From Alphaproteobacteria bacterium (GTDB lineage Bacteria; Pseudomonadota; Alphaproteobacteria; RF32; CAG-977): a stretch of 6,418 nt of DNA. Below are positions 1-6,418 of the stretch, one piece after another. A program made the translations under genes and the position numbers. The notes under the pieces were generated by a model. It saw nothing but the letters and a program-made list of their open reading frames with translations. It was not told the origin of the DNA and searched no databases. Positions within the stretch are counted from its first letter, which is position 1. Each line of letters opens with the position of its first letter. Location: positions 1-6,418 of the forward strand of contig JAFVEJ010000014.1 in the NCBI GenBank assembly GCA_017476085.1, written 5' to 3'.

Positions 1-280
1 GGTATATATGTAATATAACTGTAATAATGACGATTTTTTGGACTCTATTTTAAATGGTGTTATTTTAGGCGAGTCGGTCGGATTCTTTGAATAGCCGTTT
101 CGGTTTTGTTTTTTATTGAAAAACGGAAAACGAATCCTGATAAAACACTATACCGTCTTTGAAAAGAGAATCGTGATCACGCATTTTTCACGATTGCGCC
201 GGACATTCAGCCGTACATCGAAAACGGATAAAAATTTTTGAGACAGTGTTTAATTTATAAGGAACGTTTTGCCGTAATAC
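1..280. other. AT-rich non-coding stretch at the left edge
   Basis: I find no convincing gene here. All three plus-strand frames meet stops within the first 55 bases, and short minus-strand openings lack a ribosome site or recognisable protein. The stretch is rich in A and T. It contains a 10-bp perfect palindrome at 172-181 and an 8-bp inverted repeat (169-176 with 188-195). It lies beyond the terminator of the minus-strand dut operon. It could hold the promoter of a gene beyond the left edge, but no promoter is clear enough to call. Confidence 0.5.
169..195. repeat. Inverted repeat with embedded palindrome, possible operator
   Basis: AATCGTGA at 169-176 is exactly complementary in reverse to TCACGATT at 188-195, with 11 bases between them. 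Inside it, CGTGATCACG at 172-181 is a perfect 10-bp palindrome. The overlap gives two alternative pairings. It is not followed by a T run, so it is not a factor-independent terminator. A dimeric-regulator site is possible, but there is no adjacent gene in the window to link it to. An 8-bp repeat can also arise by chance. Confidence 0.25.
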
Positions 281-311
281 AAAAAAAGCCTGATGTGTTC
301 AGGCTTTTTTT
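281..311 (-). terminator. Perfect bidirectional hairpin terminator after the dut operon
   Basis: Positions 281-293 (seven A then GCCTGA) pair without mismatch with 299-311 (TCAGGC then seven T), giving a 13-bp stem around a 5-base loop. The A run on one side and T run on the other let it work in either direction. It lies 46 bases past the stop of the minus-strand 233-residue gene. It is the natural end of the dut - SH3-like - 233-residue transcript and would also stop any rightward transcript from the left edge. Confidence 0.85.
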
Positions 312-357
312 GTCTGTATCGGATGCGTGGGGATCTGCCGCGACAGCATTCCGAAAA

Positions 358-1059
358 TCATCGACCGTTATTTTTCGACAACAGTTTTGGCATGATCGTC
401 CGCGTGACTTTATATGCCTTTTTAAATTCTTCTTTTTGCACCATGCGATAATGCGCCCGTTTCTTTTTATCGACTTCTTTAATAACATAAGCGCCGCCTT
501 TGTCGGCGATTTGCGGGGAGGCGGCGGGACCTTGGAAAGAAAGGCCTTCCGCGACATAAAGAGCGTTCGCGGGAACCTGTTTCTTTTCAAACACAACCAT
601 TTTGCCGGATTTAATGTTTTCCGGTTTGGGGGCGTCTTTTAAGTTTGAAACAAATTCCGTATCCGTATTCCATAAATCGGCTTTTCCGGAATCGGTCACG
701 ACGTTTTCTTTTATATATTTGATAAAATCCCGGATTCCTTCCGCCGTTTCTAAAACGTTCGGGTTCTTTTTCAAATATTTTGAAATTTTTTCCCGGCGGC
801 CGAGACCGTCATAAAGAATTAAACAGCCGTCTTTCTGCTTTAAAAACTGGACAGAATTGTCTTTCGGATTAAAAAAAGTAATTCCGGCGTCCGTTTTGTT
901 TTCCCCGTTCCAATCCGTATACTCGCAAAGCTTGGCGCCGCTGAATCCGAAAACCGGAATAATAATCCGTTTCAGGTCGCTGGGGGTTACTTCTAACGTT
1001 TGTTCCGTATAGAAACGCCGGATAATTTCATTTGTGGCATTTTTATTTGTTGTAACCAT
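358..1059 (-). CDS. Basic hypothetical protein, 233 residues
   Basis: I do not recognise this protein as a whole. The ATG at 1059 follows a good AGAAGG ribosome site about 6 bases upstream, which supports the start. There is no signal peptide or membrane segment, so it is probably cytoplasmic. It is rich in lysine, especially after residue 140. Residues 25-95 look like a compact alpha/beta region with a run of aromatic and glycine residues (VFGFSG, LYDGLGRRE). Residues 165-216 (ALYVAEG, then GGAYVIKE, then EEFKKAY) resemble in layout the small beta modules that end in a conserved 'E-F-x-x-A-Y', such as PGDYG-type domains. That comparison is by eye and weak. It is the last gene before the terminator at 281-311 and lies 91 bases beyond the SH3-like gene, so it may share the dut transcript or use its own promoter. 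Confidence 0.8.
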   Translation of the reverse strand: MVTTNKNATNEIIRRFYTEQTLEVTPSDLKRIIIPVFGFSGAKLCEYTDWNGENKTDAGITFFNPKDNSVQFLKQKDGCLILYDGLGRREKISKYLKKNPNVLETAEGIRDFIKYIKENVVTDSGKADLWNTDTEFVSNLKDAPKPENIKSGKMVVFEKKQVPANALYVAEGLSFQGPAASPQIADKGGAYVIKEVDKKKRAHYRMVQKEEFKKAYKVTRTIMPKLLSKNNGR

Positions 1060-1083
1060 TGGGAGCCTTCTTGCTTTGATTCA

Positions 1084-1111
1084 AGCTTAGCAGGATTTTT
1101 ATCTGTTTCAA
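1084..1111 (-). promoter_or_regulatory. Candidate promoter for the 233-residue gene
   Basis: On the minus strand, TTGAAA (1111-1106) and TAAGCT (1089-1084) are separated by 16 bases and lie 25-52 bases upstream of the ATG at 1059. The -35 is good but the -10 matches only the key T, A and final T, so this is a weak call. A short 6-bp hairpin (1108-1113 with 1120-1125) overlaps it. It lacks a T run, so the gap shows no clear terminator. Confidence 0.25.
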
Positions 1112-1150
1112 ACGACTATGTTTGAGGGACAGGCTTTTTATGACAAGTTT

Positions 1151-1624
1151 TTATTCGAACTCTTCGTTCGGATAAACGCCCCAAAGTATGTTTTTGGGAA
1201 TCCAGCCTTGAAAATGTCCGAATTCGACTTTGCACAGAGAAATATTTTTCGGACAAGACATTAAACGACCGACAGCCCCGTTTTCAACTTTGGCTAAAGG
1301 AAGCGCTTCTTTATTGGCAGCGCGCAAAAGCAGCGTGTCTTGCGTAACGCGAACCGTGCGGCGGCCGGACAACATCGGTTGATAAATCCATCCTTCCCGC
1401 CCGTTGAAGTCTTTGATTTTGCGCCATGTTTCAAATTCTGCGGTTATTTCAACAGGCAAATCGCTTTTTAAATACACCCATTCGACGGGATAACGAAACC
1501 CCGGCCCCGTACGCAGATTAACTTGATTTGATCGTAAAGAAACGAATCGCGGAATAGGAAGGCCTGTTTGCGCTTGTGCGGGAGAGGCCGTCAAAAAAGC
1601 CAATAAAAATAAAAAAAACAGCAT
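1151..1624 (-). CDS. Periplasmic SH3-like domain protein, 157 residues
   Basis: This is a secreted protein of the alphaproteobacterial bacterial-SH3 (SH3_4-type) family, whose molecular role is not settled; such domains usually bind cell-wall material or partner proteins. Residues 1-18 form a hydrophobic signal peptide ending in PAQA. Residues 27-93 are the first SH3-like domain, with the hallmarks VNLRTGPG, YPVEWVY, an EFxxWRKI strand and EGWIYQxMLSG. Residues 94-157 look like a second, more diverged copy (QGWIPKNILWGVYP). The ATG at 1624 is only 2 bases after the dut stop. The same frame stays open to an ATG at 1696 inside dut, which would add 24 residues with many arginines before the hydrophobic stretch. 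I prefer 1624 because it avoids a 70-base overlap, although this start lacks the usual basic residues at the N-terminus and has only a weak ribosome site, so translational coupling to dut is likely. Confidence 0.85.
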   Translation of the reverse strand: MLFFLFLLAFLTASPAQAQTGLPIPRFVSLRSNQVNLRTGPGFRYPVEWVYLKSDLPVEITAEFETWRKIKDFNGREGWIYQPMLSGRRTVRVTQDTLLLRAANKEALPLAKVENGAVGRLMSCPKNISLCKVEFGHFQGWIPKNILWGVYPNEEFE

Positions 1625-1626
1625 GT

Positions 1627-2076
1627 TTAAACGCCGGTCGATCCGAAACCGCCGGTTCCTCTCTGGGTTGTGTTTAAATTTGTCAGTTCCTGCCATTCGG
1701 CTTGAAAAACGGGGGTGATAACCATTTGGGCAATTCTCATGCCGCGTTTGAGCAGAAATACCTTTTCGCTGGCATTATACAATACGACGAAAATTTCACC
1801 GCGATAGTCGGAATCGATTGTTCCCGGAGAATTTAAAACGATTATGCCGTCTGTCAGCGCCAATCCGGAGCGGGATCTGATCTGCGCTTCAAAACCGAAA
1901 GGAATGGCCATACTTATTCCCGTCGGAATTTTTTCCCAGGAACGCGGAGCTATGGTCATAGACCCGGCAATCGCCGCATACAAATCCATTCCCGCAGAAT
2001 TTGCGGTGGCATAGGAAGGCAGCGGCAAATTTCCTGCGGCTGTGTTGCGAATCACGGGAATCTGTATTTTTTTCAT
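1627..2076 (-). CDS. dut: Deoxyuridine 5'-triphosphate nucleotidohydrolase (dUTPase)
   Basis: It hydrolyses dUTP to dUMP and pyrophosphate, keeping uracil out of DNA and supplying dUMP for thymidylate synthesis. It acts in the cytoplasm as a homotrimer. All five trimeric-dUTPase motifs are present in order: GMDLYA (29-34), RSRSGLA (67-73), GTIDSDYRGE (85-94) with the catalytic Asp at 90, RIAQMV (114-119), and RGTGGFGSTG (139-148), the glycine-rich tail that closes over the active site of a neighbouring subunit. At 149 residues the length is normal for the family. The ATG at 2076 begins a typical MKKIQIPVIR strand and is preceded by a modest AGAAAG ribosome site. It heads the minus-strand operon and is divergent from the Sel1-repeat gene. 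A dut near the dnaA region is common in alphaproteobacteria. Confidence 0.97.
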   Translation of the reverse strand: MKKIQIPVIRNTAAGNLPLPSYATANSAGMDLYAAIAGSMTIAPRSWEKIPTGISMAIPFGFEAQIRSRSGLALTDGIIVLNSPGTIDSDYRGEIFVVLYNASEKVFLLKRGMRIAQMVITPVFQAEWQELTNLNTTQRGTGGFGSTGV

Positions 2077-2172
2077 AGTTCAGACTTTCTTTTTTATGGA
2101 TTTTTAATTTGAATGGCTTTATAACGATACAATAAATTTATTAACGTAATCTTGCGTGTAAGGAACGGGACT
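2077..2172. promoter_or_regulatory. Divergent promoter region between dut and the Sel1 gene
   Basis: This 96-base AT-rich gap must carry start signals for both directions. On the plus strand, TACAAT at 2128-2133 is a plausible -10 about 40 bases before the GTG, but no good -35 stands at the right distance. On the minus strand, TATAAA, read from about 2125 to 2120, is a plausible -10 for dut, again with only a weak -35. I see no obvious operator palindrome. AAGGA at 2160-2164 is the ribosome site of the plus-strand gene, 8 bases before its GTG, and it decides that start. Confidence 0.4.
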
Positions 2173-2697
2173 GTGTTGCGTAAAGTTGTTTTCGGAATAG
2201 TGTTTGCTTTAGCCTCAGCTTCTCAAGCGTTTGCTTTCGGTCTGACCGTTGATCAAATGTATCGCAACGTGCTTGGCGCGGAACAGGTAAAAGGTTCGTC
2301 GTCCGAAGGGCCGTTGTTGGCATTTAAAAAAGTTGATTCAAAGCCGGAAGCGATTTGGCAGGAAAAGAAAGCTTATTTTGAAAAACATACGCAAAAACCG
2401 GCCGACTTTGAAACGGAAAGCCAATGGAGCGATATTGTCGTTTCTGTGAAAAAAGGTCGGGTTTCTCCGTTTGATTTGGCAGAAATCCGCCGCCAGTCGG
2501 AACGTGAAAATGCCGAAGCGATTGAATTGCTGGCATGGATGTACGCTACGGGAACGGGATTGCGGCAGGATCTGCAAAAATCATACACTTATTATTTACA
2601 GGCGGCTCATATGGGCGTTCCTTCGGCTTATGACAACGTTCGCGCCGTTTATCGGGCAATGAGCCCCGATCAGAGAGCTTCTTTGCCCGCTTTTTAA
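2173..2697 (+). CDS. Secreted Sel1-repeat protein, 174 residues
   Basis: This is a periplasmic or envelope protein with one recognisable Sel1-like (TPR-related) repeat; such repeats usually mediate protein contacts, and the partner is unknown. I choose the GTG at 2173 because AAGGA lies 8 bases before it and because it puts the signal peptide at the very start: basic MLRKVV, then a hydrophobic core to about residue 18, and AxA-type cleavage after QAFA near residue 21. A TTG at 2152 in the same frame would add 7 residues but lacks a ribosome site. Residues 23-111 are charged and unassigned. Residues 112-148 carry the Sel1 pattern (NAEAIELLAWMYATGTG, then LQKSYTYYLQAAHMG), which fits one full repeat, and SAYDN after it could begin a second, truncated repeat. 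The gene is divergent from dut and its stop lies 4 bases from the stop of the convergent UbiB-like gene. Confidence 0.85.
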   Translation: MLRKVVFGIVFALASASQAFAFGLTVDQMYRNVLGAEQVKGSSSEGPLLAFKKVDSKPEAIWQEKKAYFEKHTQKPADFETESQWSDIVVSVKKGRVSPFDLAEIRRQSERENAEAIELLAWMYATGTGLRQDLQKSYTYYLQAAHMGVPSAYDNVRAVYRAMSPDQRASLPAF

Positions 2698-2701
2698 GCA
2701 G

Positions 2702-4036
2702 TTATTTTTGTAAAAGCAGCCAGGCAATAATCGAAACGCCGATAACAAGCGGCAAAATAAAATGCCGGAACCGCCATGGAGTCGGCTTGAATTGAGTTTC
2801 CAAAGTCTGATTGCAAAGCATATCCGACAACCTTTGCGGATCTTTTTGAAAGGCGGGAATTTTCTTTCCCTGAATTTCCAATCGCTCTGTTTGATGCGGT
2901 TCAAATAAAAAAGCCTGTCTGAATTCTTGCGCTGTATTTGTGACGGTCGGTCTTTTTTTGAGGGTTAAAAACAGAGAAAGCTCTTCTTTCGCGGCATCCC
3001 AGGGGGCTTTTGTTTGCAGTTCCGAAGCGCATAAATCTTCTGTTTCTTTCAGAACATGCACAATAAAACGGATAAAAAACGGTAAGAGCGAACCGTTTTG
3101 CAGGAAAGAATCAAGCAAATGATTCGCTTGTTGAGCCAGAGAAAGCGTTTTTATTTCATGTTCCGTTTCTTTTAAGAAAGTTTCCGTGCCGGGAGGACAA
3201 AAACAGTCTGACGTTTCTAAAACCTTGAGCGCGGTGGAATATTTTTTTGAAAGAAACGCTTCCGTAAAGCTGAAAATCGTTCTGTGTTCCTGAGCGGATA
3301 ACGAAACGCGATGACAGGCCCGGATAAAGTATAATCGCCCTTGATCATCGCAGCGGCATGCCGCGCCGGAAGGGCAAACGATCAGACCGTCGCGCAGAAT
3401 CATAGAGGTAATCGTTCGCACAAGACTTTCCGCCGTCTTTTTCCGATCCGGTGGTTCCCGCAAAGAAAACAGCGGCGGCAATTTTTCCAATGCCAGTTTT
3501 TGTTTGTTTGTTTGTTTCCAATCGGGCAAAGCAAAATAAATATGTTCGTCTTCGTAAAAAGCGTCGTTCAAACGTTCCAAGGCGGCGGCTTCCAATCTGA
3601 AATCCAGTACGTCGTTTAATTGTCGCTCAAAATGTCGGGCCGGTTGTACGGAAGCTTTTTCGTGCAGGATTAAAGCATAAAAAAGTTTTATTAAAGCCGT
3701 GGCCCGATTTTGGTCTTCCACGCGGATTTCATCAGGAAAGGCAGGTAAAAAACGCAAAGATCGGATGAATGCGTCGGAAAGTGTTTTCTTGACTAAATCA
3801 GGATAAAGAGCCAGACAAACGGCAAGAATTTGTTCGGGCAAACCGTAATGCATCAGAAAAGAGGTCAGGCGTTTTTCCTGTTCCTCGGGCAAATCGGAAA
3901 CGATCTTTCGTCCTGATCGCTGTGTCAAAAGCTGCAGGGGCAGCCCCTTTAAAACCGACTGCAGCCGAAATTCGGCTAAACGGCGGCTGAGAGCGCAAAG
4001 AGCGTGTGCATGCAACGGGCTGCTAAGTAAAAACAC
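2702..4036 (-). CDS. Degenerate UbiB/COQ8-family protein (predicted pseudokinase)
   Basis: Intact UbiB is a membrane-anchored atypical kinase/ATPase needed for ubiquinone synthesis. By-eye homology here: FERQLNDVLDFRLEAAALERL (135-156, quoted as FERQLND and LDFRLEAAALERL) matches the family's ExD segment; LRDG (214-217) and DDQGRL (230-235) flank the place of the catalytic loop; FLSKKYSTALKV...CFCPP (261-282) matches the helical segment that follows; 426-442 is a C-terminal membrane helix, as in UbiB. The key residues are gone: the Glu of ExD is Val143, HADxHPGN is replaced by VCPSGAAC, DFG by RAC, and no KxGQ, alanine-rich loop or VAVKV strand is seen in the shortened N-terminal part. At 444 residues it is roughly 60-80 shorter than typical UbiB. 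The GTG start at 4036 has GAAAGG 7 bases upstream. The frame is uninterrupted, so it is probably expressed, but not as a working UbiB kinase. Family placement is fairly secure; function is unknown. Confidence 0.7.
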   Translation of the reverse strand: MFLLSSPLHAHALCALSRRLAEFRLQSVLKGLPLQLLTQRSGRKIVSDLPEEQEKRLTSFLMHYGLPEQILAVCLALYPDLVKKTLSDAFIRSLRFLPAFPDEIRVEDQNRATALIKLFYALILHEKASVQPARHFERQLNDVLDFRLEAAALERLNDAFYEDEHIYFALPDWKQTNKQKLALEKLPPLFSLREPPDRKKTAESLVRTITSMILRDGLIVCPSGAACRCDDQGRLYFIRACHRVSLSAQEHRTIFSFTEAFLSKKYSTALKVLETSDCFCPPGTETFLKETEHEIKTLSLAQQANHLLDSFLQNGSLLPFFIRFIVHVLKETEDLCASELQTKAPWDAAKEELSLFLTLKKRPTVTNTAQEFRQAFLFEPHQTERLEIQGKKIPAFQKDPQRLSDMLCNQTLETQFKPTPWRFRHFILPLVIGVSIIAWLLLQK

Positions 4037-4139
4037 GGAAAAGCCTTTCAGATTAAAGAGTTTTTATGATAGCGGATATTTTGGTCACAAACAGTATTTT
4101 TCTGGTGAGAAATTAAAAAAAATGATATAAACAGAAAAC
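4037..4139. promoter_or_regulatory. Divergent intergenic region with weak promoter candidates
   Basis: This 103-base AT-rich gap separates the divergent UbiB-like gene and the small secreted-protein gene. On the minus strand, TATCAT (4071-4066) is a fair -10, but its -35 (CTGTTT, 17 bases further up) is poor. On the plus strand, TATAAA at 4126-4131 is -10-like but lies only 8 bases before the ATG, so it would give an almost leaderless message; a different start site is likely. The ribosome site before 4140 is also weak (only an A-rich ACAGAAAAC). Confidence 0.3.
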
Positions 4140-4520
4140 ATGAAAAAATTTTTGTTGATTTTATCCGGTCTTTTTCTTTTCTCCGCTTCCTGCAGCGCGG
4201 GGCAGGCCGCCTTTATGTCCGGATTTGAAGATTTGCCGCTGATGGACGGATTGAAACAGGCTGAAGATACTGCGGTTTCTTTTGATACACCGTCGGGCAG
4301 AATCATTGAAGCGTACGCGCAAAGCAATACGATCAGCAAACAAAAAATAACGGATTTTTATAATAAAACATTGCCGCAGTTGGGGTGGAGCCGTGTATCC
4401 GGAAAGGGAAAGGCCGCTTCCGTTTCTTATACGCGGGAAGGCGAAGTGCTGACGATTTCCGTTGATGACGGAACGCCGGCTTCCGTCCGTTTTGAATTGA
4501 TGACACGGGAAAAGGATTAA
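4140..4520 (+). CDS. Small secreted conserved hypothetical protein, 126 residues
   Basis: The function is unknown. Residues 1-20 are a clear signal peptide (MKKFLLILSG, hydrophobic to 14, then SASCSA). Cys18 sits near where a lipoprotein Cys might be, but the preceding residues (S-A-S) lack the usual Leu at -3, so ordinary cleavage after CSA or GQA is more likely. The mature part starts with AAFMSGFEDLPLMDGL (23-38), followed by VSFDTPSGRIIEAYA (46-60), FYNKTLPQLGW (73-83) and two beta-strand-like stretches ending in VRFELM. I recall similar 'GFEDLPLMxGL ... FDTPxGRI' proteins beside enoyl-CoA hydratase genes in Rhodospirillales-type genomes, but cannot name a family. The stop is 3 bases before the echA-like ATG, and the AAAGGA ribosome site of the next gene lies inside its last codons, so the two are co-transcribed and probably coupled. 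Confidence 0.85.
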   Translation: MKKFLLILSGLFLFSASCSAGQAAFMSGFEDLPLMDGLKQAEDTAVSFDTPSGRIIEAYAQSNTISKQKITDFYNKTLPQLGWSRVSGKGKAASVSYTREGEVLTISVDDGTPASVRFELMTREKD

Positions 4521-4523
4521 AAT

Positions 4524-5282
4524 ATGGATTTTGAAACAATTACGGTTGAAAACAGCGGGGCTGTCGGTTTGATTACGTTGAACCGTCCGGCCTCTATGAA
4601 CGCGGTATGTGCCGCAATGCTGTACGAGTTGGCCCAAGCCGTGCGCGCATTCGATGCGGAAAAAGCAATTCGCGTCATTGTCTTGAAAGGGACGGAGGAT
4701 TTTTTCGCCGCCGGAACGGATATGTCGGAATTTATTGCGGTGCAGGATACGGCGGACGGCGAATTGTACGGCAGCAGTGCGGACGCGATCGCTTCCTGTT
4801 CGAAACCAATTATAGCTGCGGTGGCGGGATACGCTTTCGGCGGCGGTTTGGAATTGGTGCTGTTGAGCGATATCGTTATCGCGGCGGAAAGCGCCAGATT
4901 CGGTTTCCCTGAAATTACGTTGGGCGTTTTGCCGCAGTTGGGCGGCGTGTCGTTGCTGACAAATCGCGTCGGACGGGCTAAAGCGGCGGATCTGTTGTTG
5001 ACAGGCCGTCATATTTCCGCCGAAGAAGCGCTGGCGTGCGGGCTTGTTTCGCGCGTTGTGGATTCGGCAGATCTGCTTAACGAGACGGAAGAAACGGCTG
5101 AACGTATCGCGGCTATGCCCGCCGTCGGCGTTCGTTTGGTCAAACAGGCGATTTTAAATGCGTGCGATTCTTCTTTGAAAAATGAGGAAACGATCGCGCG
5201 GTTGTCGTTGATGTCTGCCGATGCCAAGGAAGGATTGCGGGCCTTGACGGAAAATCGTGCGCCAAAGTTTGAACATAAGTAG
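4524..5282 (+). CDS. Enoyl-CoA hydratase/isomerase (crotonase) family protein
   Basis: Likely adds water across trans-2-enoyl-CoA in fatty-acid beta-oxidation or a related acyl-CoA pathway in the cytoplasm; the exact substrate cannot be read from sequence. The 252-residue length fits a single-domain crotonase. Landmarks in order: LNRPASMNAV (19-28), the oxyanion-hole segment FFAAGTDM (60-67), AGYAFGGGLEL (101-111) with the second oxyanion glycine and Glu110, and FPEITLGVLPQLGG (128-141) with Glu130. Glu110 and Glu130 match the two catalytic glutamates of true hydratases, which favours hydratase activity over an inactive or purely isomerase-type relative. The tail (LTENRAPKF) is typical. AAAGGA lies 7 bases before the ATG. 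It follows the small secreted-protein gene by 3 bases and precedes rpsT by 76 bases, the usual neighbour in alphaproteobacteria. No terminator is evident after it, so read-through into rpsT is possible. Confidence 0.95.
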   Translation: MDFETITVENSGAVGLITLNRPASMNAVCAAMLYELAQAVRAFDAEKAIRVIVLKGTEDFFAAGTDMSEFIAVQDTADGELYGSSADAIASCSKPIIAAVAGYAFGGGLELVLLSDIVIAAESARFGFPEITLGVLPQLGGVSLLTNRVGRAKAADLLLTGRHISAEEALACGLVSRVVDSADLLNETEETAERIAAMPAVGVRLVKQAILNACDSSLKNEETIARLSLMSADAKEGLRALTENRAPKFEHK

Positions 5283-5290
5283 TTTATCCC

Positions 5291-5320
5291 TTGACTTTTG
5301 CGTTTGTTTGATTGTATAAA
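5291..5320 (+). promoter_or_regulatory. Sigma70-type promoter of rpsT
   Basis: TTGACT at 5291-5296 and TATAAA at 5315-5320 are separated by 18 bases, close to the housekeeping consensus. Transcription would begin near 5327, giving a leader of about 32 bases before the rpsT ATG. The only Shine-Dalgarno-like element, TAGGA at 5340-5344, is about 14 bases from the ATG, longer than usual and separated by an A-rich run. Confidence 0.7.
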
Positions 5321-5358
5321 ACCTACCTTAGTTCTTTTTTAGGAAACAGTCTAAAAAA

Positions 5359-5622
5359 ATGGCTAATCATCTTTCGTCAAAACAGCGTATTCGTCGCAAC
5401 GCTCGCCGTGCAGCATTTAATGCCGCCAGAAAATCCCGCGTTCATACGTTTACGAAAAAACTTGAAACCGCTTTGACCAGCGGTGATAAGGCTGCGGCAA
5501 CGCAGGCTTTTCGTACGGCCGAATCGGAAATTATGTGCGCTGTTTCAAAAGGCGTTTTTCACAAAAACACCGCTGCTCGCAAGGTTTCTCGTTTGGCCGC
5601 GCGCGTTAAGGCTATGGGCTAA
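5359..5622 (+). CDS. rpsT: 30S ribosomal protein S20
   Basis: A primary 16S rRNA-binding protein that helps early assembly of the small ribosomal subunit. The 87-residue length is standard. It starts [17 protein letters not shown] and continues with the basic helical pattern of S20. The conserved late segment [16 protein letters not shown] (64-79) is diagnostic. The many Arg and Lys residues fit RNA binding. It has its own promoter at 5291-5320 and a strong terminator at 5694-5725, so it is probably a monocistronic unit, with possible read-through from the hydratase gene. Its place directly before dnaA is typical of alphaproteobacteria. Confidence 0.97.
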
Positions 5623-5647
5623 CGCCGGCTGATTTGTAAAACCTCTG

Positions 5648-5665
5648 CCCGACTTTAAAATCGGG
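5648..5665 (+). other. Short hairpin just after rpsT
   Basis: CCCGA at 5648-5652 pairs with TCGGG at 5661-5665 around an 8-base loop. It is followed within a few bases by TTTT (5671-5674), so it could be a weak upstream terminator or a 3'-end stabiliser of the rpsT message. The stem is short and the T run poor; the 5694-5725 structure is much stronger. Confidence 0.35.
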
Positions 5666-5693
5666 GACTGTTTTATAAAAAGCTTATGGAATT

Positions 5694-5725
5694 AAAGCAG
5701 ACTGTAGAAATACAGTCTGCTTTTT
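5694..5725 (+). terminator. Strong rpsT terminator with GAAA tetraloop
   Basis: AAAGCAGACTGTA (5694-5706) pairs perfectly with TACAGTCTGCTTT (5711-5723) around a GAAA loop (5707-5710), a stable GNRA tetraloop. The stem runs straight into T residues (5721-5725), and more T follows after a short break. It ends rpsT transcription and separates it from dnaA. Confidence 0.9.
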
Positions 5726-5900
5726 ATTGTTGTTGGTATTTTTTTATAAAATTGTTTATCTTAACAGATGAAGCCACAACATCTTGAGTCAAGAGATTTT
5801 ATTTTCTTTTTTCTTTCCGGCAAGGCTTGCCTTTCGCTTTATCTGCCCCTATTATTTGCCGGCCGGGTTAAGGCGGAACTATACTTTTTGGAATGGATAA
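5726..5900 (+). promoter_or_regulatory. dnaA upstream region: candidate promoter and leader
   Basis: This 175-base stretch should hold the dnaA promoter. The best candidate is TTGGTA (5733-5738) with TATCTT (5757-5762), spacing 18, which is moderate at best. The leader contains CCGGCAA (5817-5823), which can pair either with TTGCC at 5827-5831 or with TTGCCGG at 5856-5862, so two alternative stems are possible. I see no good match to the DnaA box TTATCCACA, so I do not call oriC here. A 109-codon open frame beginning at 5768 runs into dnaA in another frame and is not a gene. Confidence 0.4.
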
Positions 5901-6418
5901 ATGGCGCGGGAAAAACAGGATTCGATTATTTCACAAACGGCGGCTGTCGAAGCGCGTTTGCGCGAATCGTTAGGGGATTCCGTTTACGATACATGGTTGA
6001 AATCTTTGTCGGTCGGCGGATTGACGGACGGAAAGCTGACGTTGTTTTTGCCGACAAATTTCTTTTGCAGCTATATCGCGCGCAATTTTGCCGATGAAAT
6101 CACGCAGGCTTGGCAAAGCGAAAATCCCGAGGTCCGTCAAATTAAATTTGAAGCGGGCAGTCCTTCTTTCAGTGAATCTGCGGCCGTGCCGACCGAAGAA
6201 CCGGAAAAAACGGATAAACCCGTTCCTTCCGTTGAATTGATGGAAACGGAAAAAGATGTTTTGTCTGCCGCATTGGATCCGCGTTTTACATTTGACAATT
6301 TTGTTGTCGGCGCGCCGAACGAGTTCGCTTATGCCGCGGCCAGACGCGTTGCGGAATCAAGTACGCCGTCGTTTAATCCGCTTTATTTGTATTCCGGAGC
6401 GGGAATGGGCAAAACACA
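5901..6418 (+). CDS. dnaA: Chromosomal replication initiator DnaA (N-terminal part, cut by window end)
   Basis: DnaA binds ATP and the origin, opens the duplex and loads the helicase; it also acts as a transcription regulator. The ATG at 5901 has GGA about 8 bases upstream and begins MAREKQDSII. Residues 10-85 are domain I, with the family's helix YDTWLKSL (29-36), LTLFLPTNFF (46-55) and FADEITQAW (63-71), which mediates self-association and helicase contacts. Residues about 86-123 are the acidic, variable linker (domain II), moderately short. LDPRFTFDNFVVG (125-137) opens the AAA+ domain III, and LYLYSGAGMGKT (161-172) is the Walker A loop with Lys171. The window ends two bases into the next codon, so the rest of the AAA+ domain and the DNA-binding domain IV lie outside. 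SGAGMGKT differs slightly from the more common GGVGLGKT but keeps all required residues. Confidence 0.96.
   Translation, partial: MAREKQDSIISQTAAVEARLRESLGDSVYDTWLKSLSVGGLTDGKLTLFLPTNFFCSYIARNFADEITQAWQSENPEVRQIKFEAGSPSFSESAAVPTEEPEKTDKPVPSVELMETEKDVLSAALDPRFTFDNFVVGAPNEFAYAAARRVAESSTPSFNPLYLYSGAGMGKT

Follow-up and report, generated by a model that had tools for sequence, protein, structure and literature searches.

Why would a bacterium keep an open reading frame in the place of ubiB when the encoded protein has lost the catalytic residues of UbiB? The question is raised by a gene in a 6,418-nucleotide stretch of alphaproteobacterial DNA (contig JAFVEJ010000014.1 of assembly GCA_017476085.1, positions 1 to 6,418), here called the window. 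The gene product, which we name UBL, no longer has the N-lobe's nucleotide-binding strands, the KxGQ motif or any of the catalytic residues, and has kept the helical core, the C-terminal hydrophobic helix and an open frame. We propose that UBL is a dead UbiB orthologue under purifying selection, with a probability of roughly 0.93. Passages of PMC7263595 still call the role of UbiB/COQ8 proteins mysterious, describe an ATPase stimulated by analogues of quinone intermediates and link these proteins to isoprenoid lipid synthesis, and part of PMC11707229 gives ubiB as the most conserved gene of its Pseudomonadota set; RF32, the gut order suspected here, is not mentioned in the main text of that paper. 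In the open-licence literature, judged by passages, titles and abstract openings, we found no description of a UbiB pseudokinase or of quinone-free gut alphaproteobacteria.

2702..4036, minus strand: UBL, UbiB-derived pseudoenzyme; 444 codons, beginning with GTG at 4036, the stop codon ending at 2702

The original prediction had described an intact 444-codon frame with a proper ribosome site. The frame was confirmed, and a candidate site, GAAAGG, whose last base lies 7 bases upstream of the GTG, is plausible as read from the sequence. UBL is convergent with a Sel1-repeat gene on one side and divergent from orf126-echA on the other, and is thus apparently its own transcription unit, so that its retention would not follow merely from operon structure.

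Family assignment and the ubiB locus

Matches of UBL as a single sequence were weak, as might be expected if an unrelated helical protein resembled UbiB by chance. The Pfam ABC1 model matched residues 129-223 just under its cut-off (E 1.4e-4, 21.6 bits against 22.9), the UbiB model TIGR01982 gave an E-value of 7.7e-6 (24.7 bits, the equivalog cut-off of 487.55 not being reached), and a sequence search of the PDB with UBL alone returned nothing real, the best hit being a DNA gyrase (E 0.57). Profile-profile comparison gave a different picture. Using hhalign, the UBL family aligned together with the window matched 12 intact alphaproteobacterial UbiB proteins with an E-value of 8.8e-23, and a 12-row UBL set that included divergent members did so with an E-value of 5e-26, whereas the reversed UbiB alignment and 20 column shuffles gave E-values of 0.1-0.98 with the same UBL profiles. 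With these controls, and with profile, fold and synteny in agreement, chance resemblance was rejected, and we regard it as refuted, with a probability close to nil.

The match is collinear from residue 3 to about residue 386, N-terminal helices included, with one large gap, which falls where UbiB carries the Ala-rich loop and the VAxK strand and leaves 54 residues of the intact UbiB L009 unmatched. An alignment from residue 135 onwards with almost no gaps had been predicted; the homology stands and extends further towards the N-terminus, and the near absence of gaps is slightly overstated, as there is a 6-residue gap ahead of RDG and the C-terminal part aligns poorly. The AlphaFold2 model of UBL is predicted to have a kinase-like fold with the UbiB-specific N-terminal extension helices, and both Foldseek and VIA-align matched it to COQ8A (from model residues 23-52 to 361-364); the same fold is predicted for a UBL member of 24% identity. 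A C-terminal membrane segment (hydropathy at least 1.65) is found in 28 of 29 UBL members and corresponds to helix 423-443 of the model. Profile comparison and predicted fold therefore both return UbiB/COQ8, the family first proposed.

A protein search covering 5.8 billion proteins, in which the best 7999 candidates, ranked by words in common, were scored, yielded 19 UBL relatives with 36-97% identity and 414-453 amino acids, none of which was listed with a Pfam domain. A second search, run likewise with a wider alignment, added P0020-P0023. Some of the named records are Alphaproteobacteria metagenome-assembled genomes (MAGs) from the rumen of sheep and roe deer. Four proteins were omitted from counts: P0019 for an internal gap, P0021 as partial, P0022 for its foreign C-terminus and P0023 for its foreign N-terminus. 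In P0022 and P0023 a portion of UBL is fused to foreign sequence (PF09344 on P0023), and both probably come from chimeric contigs.

Among the genomes first listed as relatives (G001-G012, below the UBL clade; the listing gives neither kinship nor completeness), UBL was found in 12/12 with the wider alignment and in 11/12 with the narrower one, the barely recognisable copy of G010 being detected only with the former. The ABC1 cut-off was exceeded by UBL in 5/12, in one of these five only with neighbouring matches in frame. No other ABC1 match accompanied UBL in any of G001-G005, and canonical ABC1 was absent from G001-G012, where the best match (37.4 bits) was UBL itself. In an echA tree the window grouped with G001, G002 and G007 (support 91/96), and the window plus 10 UBL genomes were split from G013 and G014 (100/100).

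UBL occupies the slot and orientation that ubiB has in the intact genome G013 (L088), so that the usual ubiB locus named in the original prediction was borne out by synteny. The order in L088 is dnaA-rpsT-echA-mutM-ubiE-ubiB-coaBC-dut, where ubiE and ubiB were named by profile matches and dut, echA, rpsT and dnaA by matches to the window; the names mutM and coaBC are ones we presume from the usual gene order. In the UBL clade the order is dnaA-rpsT-echA-orf126, then UBL, then Sel1-dut-SH3, orf126 standing where L088 has other genes ahead of ubiB. The dnaA/rpsT/echA/orf126 flank was found in 10/12 genomes (G001-3, 5-10, 12) and the Sel1/dut flank in 10/12 (G001-9, 12); in G004 and G011 UBL lies close to the end of a contig, and in G011 no other window genes were seen over 18 kb. 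Pfam assignments of the flanking genes include dut, an SH3 protein, echA, rpsT and dnaA. The neighbours in the window are:

1627..2076, minus strand: dut, syntenic marker on the other flank, oriented relative to UBL as in intact loci
2152-2697: Sel1-repeat gene, converging with UBL with 4 bases between
4140..4520, plus strand: orf126, small conserved protein without a Pfam family, its N-terminus reading by eye as exported
4524..5282, plus strand: echA (enoyl-CoA hydratase), syntenic marker of the ubiB locus
5359..5622, plus strand: rpsT, syntenic marker

The orf126 gene lies between echA and UBL in 10/12 clade genomes, and is also present in G014, beside ubiB.

Motifs lost, retained and newly conserved

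With 444 amino acids UBL is shorter than the intact UbiB set (488-546). As in alphaproteobacterial UbiB (TIGR01982 / PF03109 ABC1), the helices run collinearly between the N-terminal extension and the hydrophobic helix at the C-terminus, and the ExDxRxEA, DWxxT and RDG stretches are present; unlike UbiB, UBL lacks the Ala-rich loop, VAxK, KxGQ, HADxHPGN and DFG, carries a family-specific E154, P222 and GKKxPxF, and occurs where quinone genes were not found. The segments concerned are:

3752..3880, minus strand: residues 53-95, helices that align to the N-terminal extension specific to UbiB, in the region of KxGQ; KLGQ replaced by ILAV
3560..3646, minus strand: residues 131-159, ExDxRxEA helix pair (insert/alpha-C equivalent), reading VLDFRLEA; D145, R147 and E149 retained
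3509..3523, minus strand: residues 172-176, DWxxT, common to UbiB; retained in 28-29/29 members
3356..3394, minus strand: residues 215-227, RDG retained, then VCPSGAAC replacing HADxHPGN; catalytic Asp position Pro in 26/29
3314..3322, minus strand: residues 239-241, RAC replacing DFG; Asp position Arg/Lys in 26/29
2849..2869, minus strand: residues 390-396, GKKxPxF, family-specific conserved segment without a clear UbiB counterpart; K391 28/29, F396 28/29
2708..2770, minus strand: residues 423-443, hydrophobic helix at the C-terminus, presumably a membrane anchor like that of intact UbiB

The motif readings made for the window alone (V143 at the ExD Glu, VCPSGAAC with one residue fewer than in UbiB, RAC at 239-241) were all recovered, as was the shortened N-lobe without a nucleotide-binding strand, both the Ala-rich loop and the VAxK strand being absent. 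In order to ask what holds for the family, we tallied 29 UBL members against 12 UbiB proteins, leaving out G002 and G005, whose near-identical P0008 and P0017 were already included, and the interrupted G007. The Lys and Gly of KxGQ are each kept in 1/29 members and the Gln in none; the Ala-rich loop is gapped in all 29, and the VAxK Lys in 27/29, with a stray Thr in the other two. At HADxHPGN, the Asp of HAD and the His of HxGN are found in 0/29 and the Asn of GN in 2/29, and the DFG Asp is likewise found in 0/29. Loss of the ExD Glu holds for the window, which reads VxD, and not for the family, in which Glu is kept in 16/29 and Asp in 28/29.

Other UbiB positions are retained: Thr of DWxxT in 29/29, Gly of RDG in 28/29, Trp of NMW in 24/29 and Glu of xRxEA in 27/29. 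The last of these we take, by our own assignment, to be the alpha-C Glu. In COQ8A this residue is Glu411, according to PMC4718504, which also describes how KxGQ and ExD fold into the active site. The vacated catalytic positions were mostly refilled alike, with Pro at the HAD Asp (26/29) and Arg or Lys at the DFG Asp (26/29); the KxGQ Gly position is Ala in 25/29, and new conserved positions include E154 (29/29), K391 (28/29) and F396 (28/29).

These losses set UBL apart from the related proteins of known structure. COQ8A/ADCK3 (PDB 7udp, 5i35, 4ped) has the full set of traditional catalytic residues, and nucleotide stabilises it, as stated in part of PMC4718504, whereas UBL has no recognisable nucleotide site; structures of the mycobacterial ABC1 proteins MSMEG_1954 / Rv3197 include, by their entry titles, ADP and AMPPNP complexes, whereas UBL has no N-lobe strands. 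Protein pseudokinases, as described in part of PMC4718504, share with UBL a kinase-like fold without catalytic residues and a presumed binding or scaffold role; UBL differs in having lost the nucleotide-binding strands too, not just motif residues, and in descending from the UbiB branch.

Selection or decay

Could UBL be a relict in slow decay, freed from constraint when quinones were lost and now drifting without a present function? The frame itself speaks against this, since UBL has no internal stop in 11/12 genomes. Between the window and L001, UBL proteins are 47% identical over 436 codons, with a nonsynonymous divergence (dN) of 0.44 and a saturated synonymous divergence (dS) of 2.5. As dS was saturated and YN00 undefined for 9/10 UBL pairs, we turned to a neutral simulation, a simple model with one start sequence and 300 runs per distance. 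Fourfold sites of dut, Sel1, orf126 and echA are identical at 152/268 positions between the window and L001; simulated neutral drift to a fourfold identity of 0.576 left 24-36% amino acid identity and at least 9 stops, with 0/300 runs free of stops. The observed UBL identity thus exceeds the neutral expectation. Decay is also hard to reconcile with the new residues (Pro and Arg/Lys) that recur where catalytic ones used to be, with the invariant E154 and with the same fold being predicted for the member of 24% identity.

Several observations nevertheless weigh against purifying selection on UBL, and some are what decay would produce. Of the genes compared, UBL changes fastest (window against L001: UBL 47%, dut 81%, echA 86%): the neighbours rpsT, echA, dut, orf126 and Sel1 show a dN of 0.045-0.14, a 22-codon SH3 fragment being set aside, and across the clade loci compared identity to the window is 26-49% for UBL and 46-95% for its neighbours (34-82% in G010). 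In G007 (L055/L083) an in-frame TAA follows codon ~50, after which the frame is open for 398 codons; G008, G011 and G012 have shorter forms of 368-396 amino acids, and the G010 copy has diverged almost beyond recognition. The dN/dS estimates are soft because of saturation, with NG86 giving 0.12-0.38 in the 6/10 pairs where it was definable, one of them of just 50 codons, and YN00 a single value of 0.51 (L005) from 10 pairs. Moreover, the members tallied for motifs are related, so that the counts are not independent events. The TAA of G007 may be a MAG error or a recent loss.

Taken together, we consider decay without function unlikely. The original prediction had favoured selection over simple decay, which is supported by the open frames, the identity above neutral and the new residues at catalytic positions. 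As for the signs of decay for which it had proposed to look in relatives, frequent stops were not found, with 11/12 copies open and one stop in G007, and dN/dS could not be cleanly measured with dS saturated.

Quinone genes, complex I and possible roles of UBL

The quinone status of the window's organism is inferred from the genomes of its relatives. Among 15 genomes, UbiE and Ubi-hydroxylase were over cut-off just in G013 and G015, with weak methyltransferase matches in all 15; the housekeeping control, thymidylate kinase, was found in 15/15. A single prenyl synthase match was present in 11/12 clade genomes, all but G009, whereas G013 has 4 and G015 has 2. UbiA-family matches were over cut-off in 6/12 clade genomes; for four of these (G002, G003, G004, G012) identity as UbiA was rejected, since their best matches were decaprenyl-phosphate phosphoribosyltransferase models, all under the curated cut-off, and UbiA itself scored just 32-44 bits. 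The matches of G005 and G006 lie outside the four so classified. Decaprenyl-phosphate phosphoribosyltransferase-like proteins of the UbiA superfamily lie at L090:1711-2619, L091:5744-6661, L092:5978-6889 and L093:6383-7276; the gene adjoins hisH and hisF in L090 and is near hisF in L092.

Complex I genes persist in the UBL clade without recognised quinone genes. The 49-kDa subunit (NuoD) was matched in 11/12 genomes (none in G005), and in G007 the cluster comprises, by Pfam, ten Nuo-type proteins, NuoA/B/C/D/G/H/I/J/L/M (L125, G007:C14:113000-129000), for which reason a NiFe-hydrogenase reading of the 49-kDa matches was rejected there. NuoE and NuoF were not recognised by eye beside this cluster, no dedicated search for them having been made. 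Over the NuoD loci (L125, L126, L127, L129-L139), the His of HPAAHG is lost in 11/11 clade genomes and in G014 and kept in G013 and G015, and the Tyr of LDY is lost in 10/11, being kept just in G009, as LNY. We take these two to be the residues that contact the quinone headgroup. The UBL clade is a candidate case of a complex I that works, or at least persists, in the apparent absence of quinone. The NuoD tree places G009 with G013-G015 (99/98) and the echA tree places it inside the UBL group, a conflict that may reflect transfer, MAG contamination or a composition artefact, G009 being flagged for odd composition.

We suggest that the lineage, a group of uncultured alphaproteobacteria, lost quinone synthesis while UBL was inherited vertically in the place of ubiB, and that UBL would no longer bind or hydrolyse ATP. 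With the ATP site removed and a helical shell and hydrophobic anchor left, the protein would most likely bind a lipid or a partner in the membrane without needing ATP; the helical pocket, formerly for quinone intermediates, may now hold another polyprenyl, a phospholipid or a membrane protein partner. UBL could then be a binding protein or scaffold that is anchored in the membrane and does not depend on ATP. One point counts against this assignment: with quinones absent the ancestral ligand is gone, so that it is ancestry that lipid binding has to draw on. We hold lipid binding or scaffolding tentatively, somewhat below even odds. The combined explanation, a vertically inherited ubiB orthologue that serves as an ATP-independent membrane binding or scaffold protein in an apparently quinone-less lineage, is the best we can offer, and we judge its chances to be about even. 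Being a shell that lacks the ATP site, and belonging to a bacterium with relatives in which quinone genes were not seen, UBL separates the ATP-dependent role of UbiB from any ATP-independent one, and makes the question testable with one protein.

The persistence of complex I would also suit a cell that takes up gut quinones, which UBL would hold or move; part of PMC8346625 has UbiB proteins affecting coenzyme Q distribution in yeast. Such salvage is improbable given the loss of the NuoD His and Tyr. Cytochrome bd was found in 0/12 clade genomes, which points the same way only weakly, as it is also missing from G014 and from G015, a genome with ubiE, ubiA-type and ubiB matches. Slightly better placed, and still unlikely, is the possibility that UBL was repurposed as an assembly or structural factor (a helical membrane-anchored subunit or chaperone) of an altered, apparently quinone-free complex I: the divergent complex I genes are kept with their NuoD His lost throughout, and UBL and NuoD occur together in 11/12 genomes, ~20 kb apart on one contig in G007. 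However, UBL forms no operon with nuo genes in G007, and co-occurrence within one clade may amount to a single evolutionary event.

A second dead UbiB was found in G014, which lies outside the UBL clade by the echA tree and is without UbiA or UbiE over cut-off. Its contig reads rpsT-echA-orf126 and then ubiB, the same type of locus, and its UbiB (L143:3627-4655, plus strand, 343 amino acids) is likewise catalytically dead by motif, by the opposite route: KLGQ, VAVK and EMD are kept, and the sequence passes in frame from a point ahead of the catalytic loop directly to a hydrophobic tail at the C-terminus, so that the catalytic C-lobe is gone. The tail was forced against the loop in the alignment, and that it corresponds to the tail of UbiB is our own reading; the gene lies on one MAG contig of 6 kb, where misassembly is possible. 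Among the matches listed for 142 relatives, short frames in G135 (290 amino acids, contig end) and G046 (161 amino acids) left out, no other UbiB lacking the C-lobe was recognised.

UbiB may have died as an enzyme at least twice when quinones were lost, the N-lobe strands being deleted in the window's clade and, conversely, the C-lobe in G014, with a membrane-anchored helical shell kept for an ATP-independent job in cells that retain complex I without its quinone site. On this view UbiB would possess an older, separable function, structural or lipid-binding, which may serve a quinone-free complex I; this broader idea is speculative, and we find it doubtful.

G014 also encodes a second ABC1/AarF-like protein, intact and of general type (L144:611-1924, G014:C177), which possibly reflects contamination or transfer.
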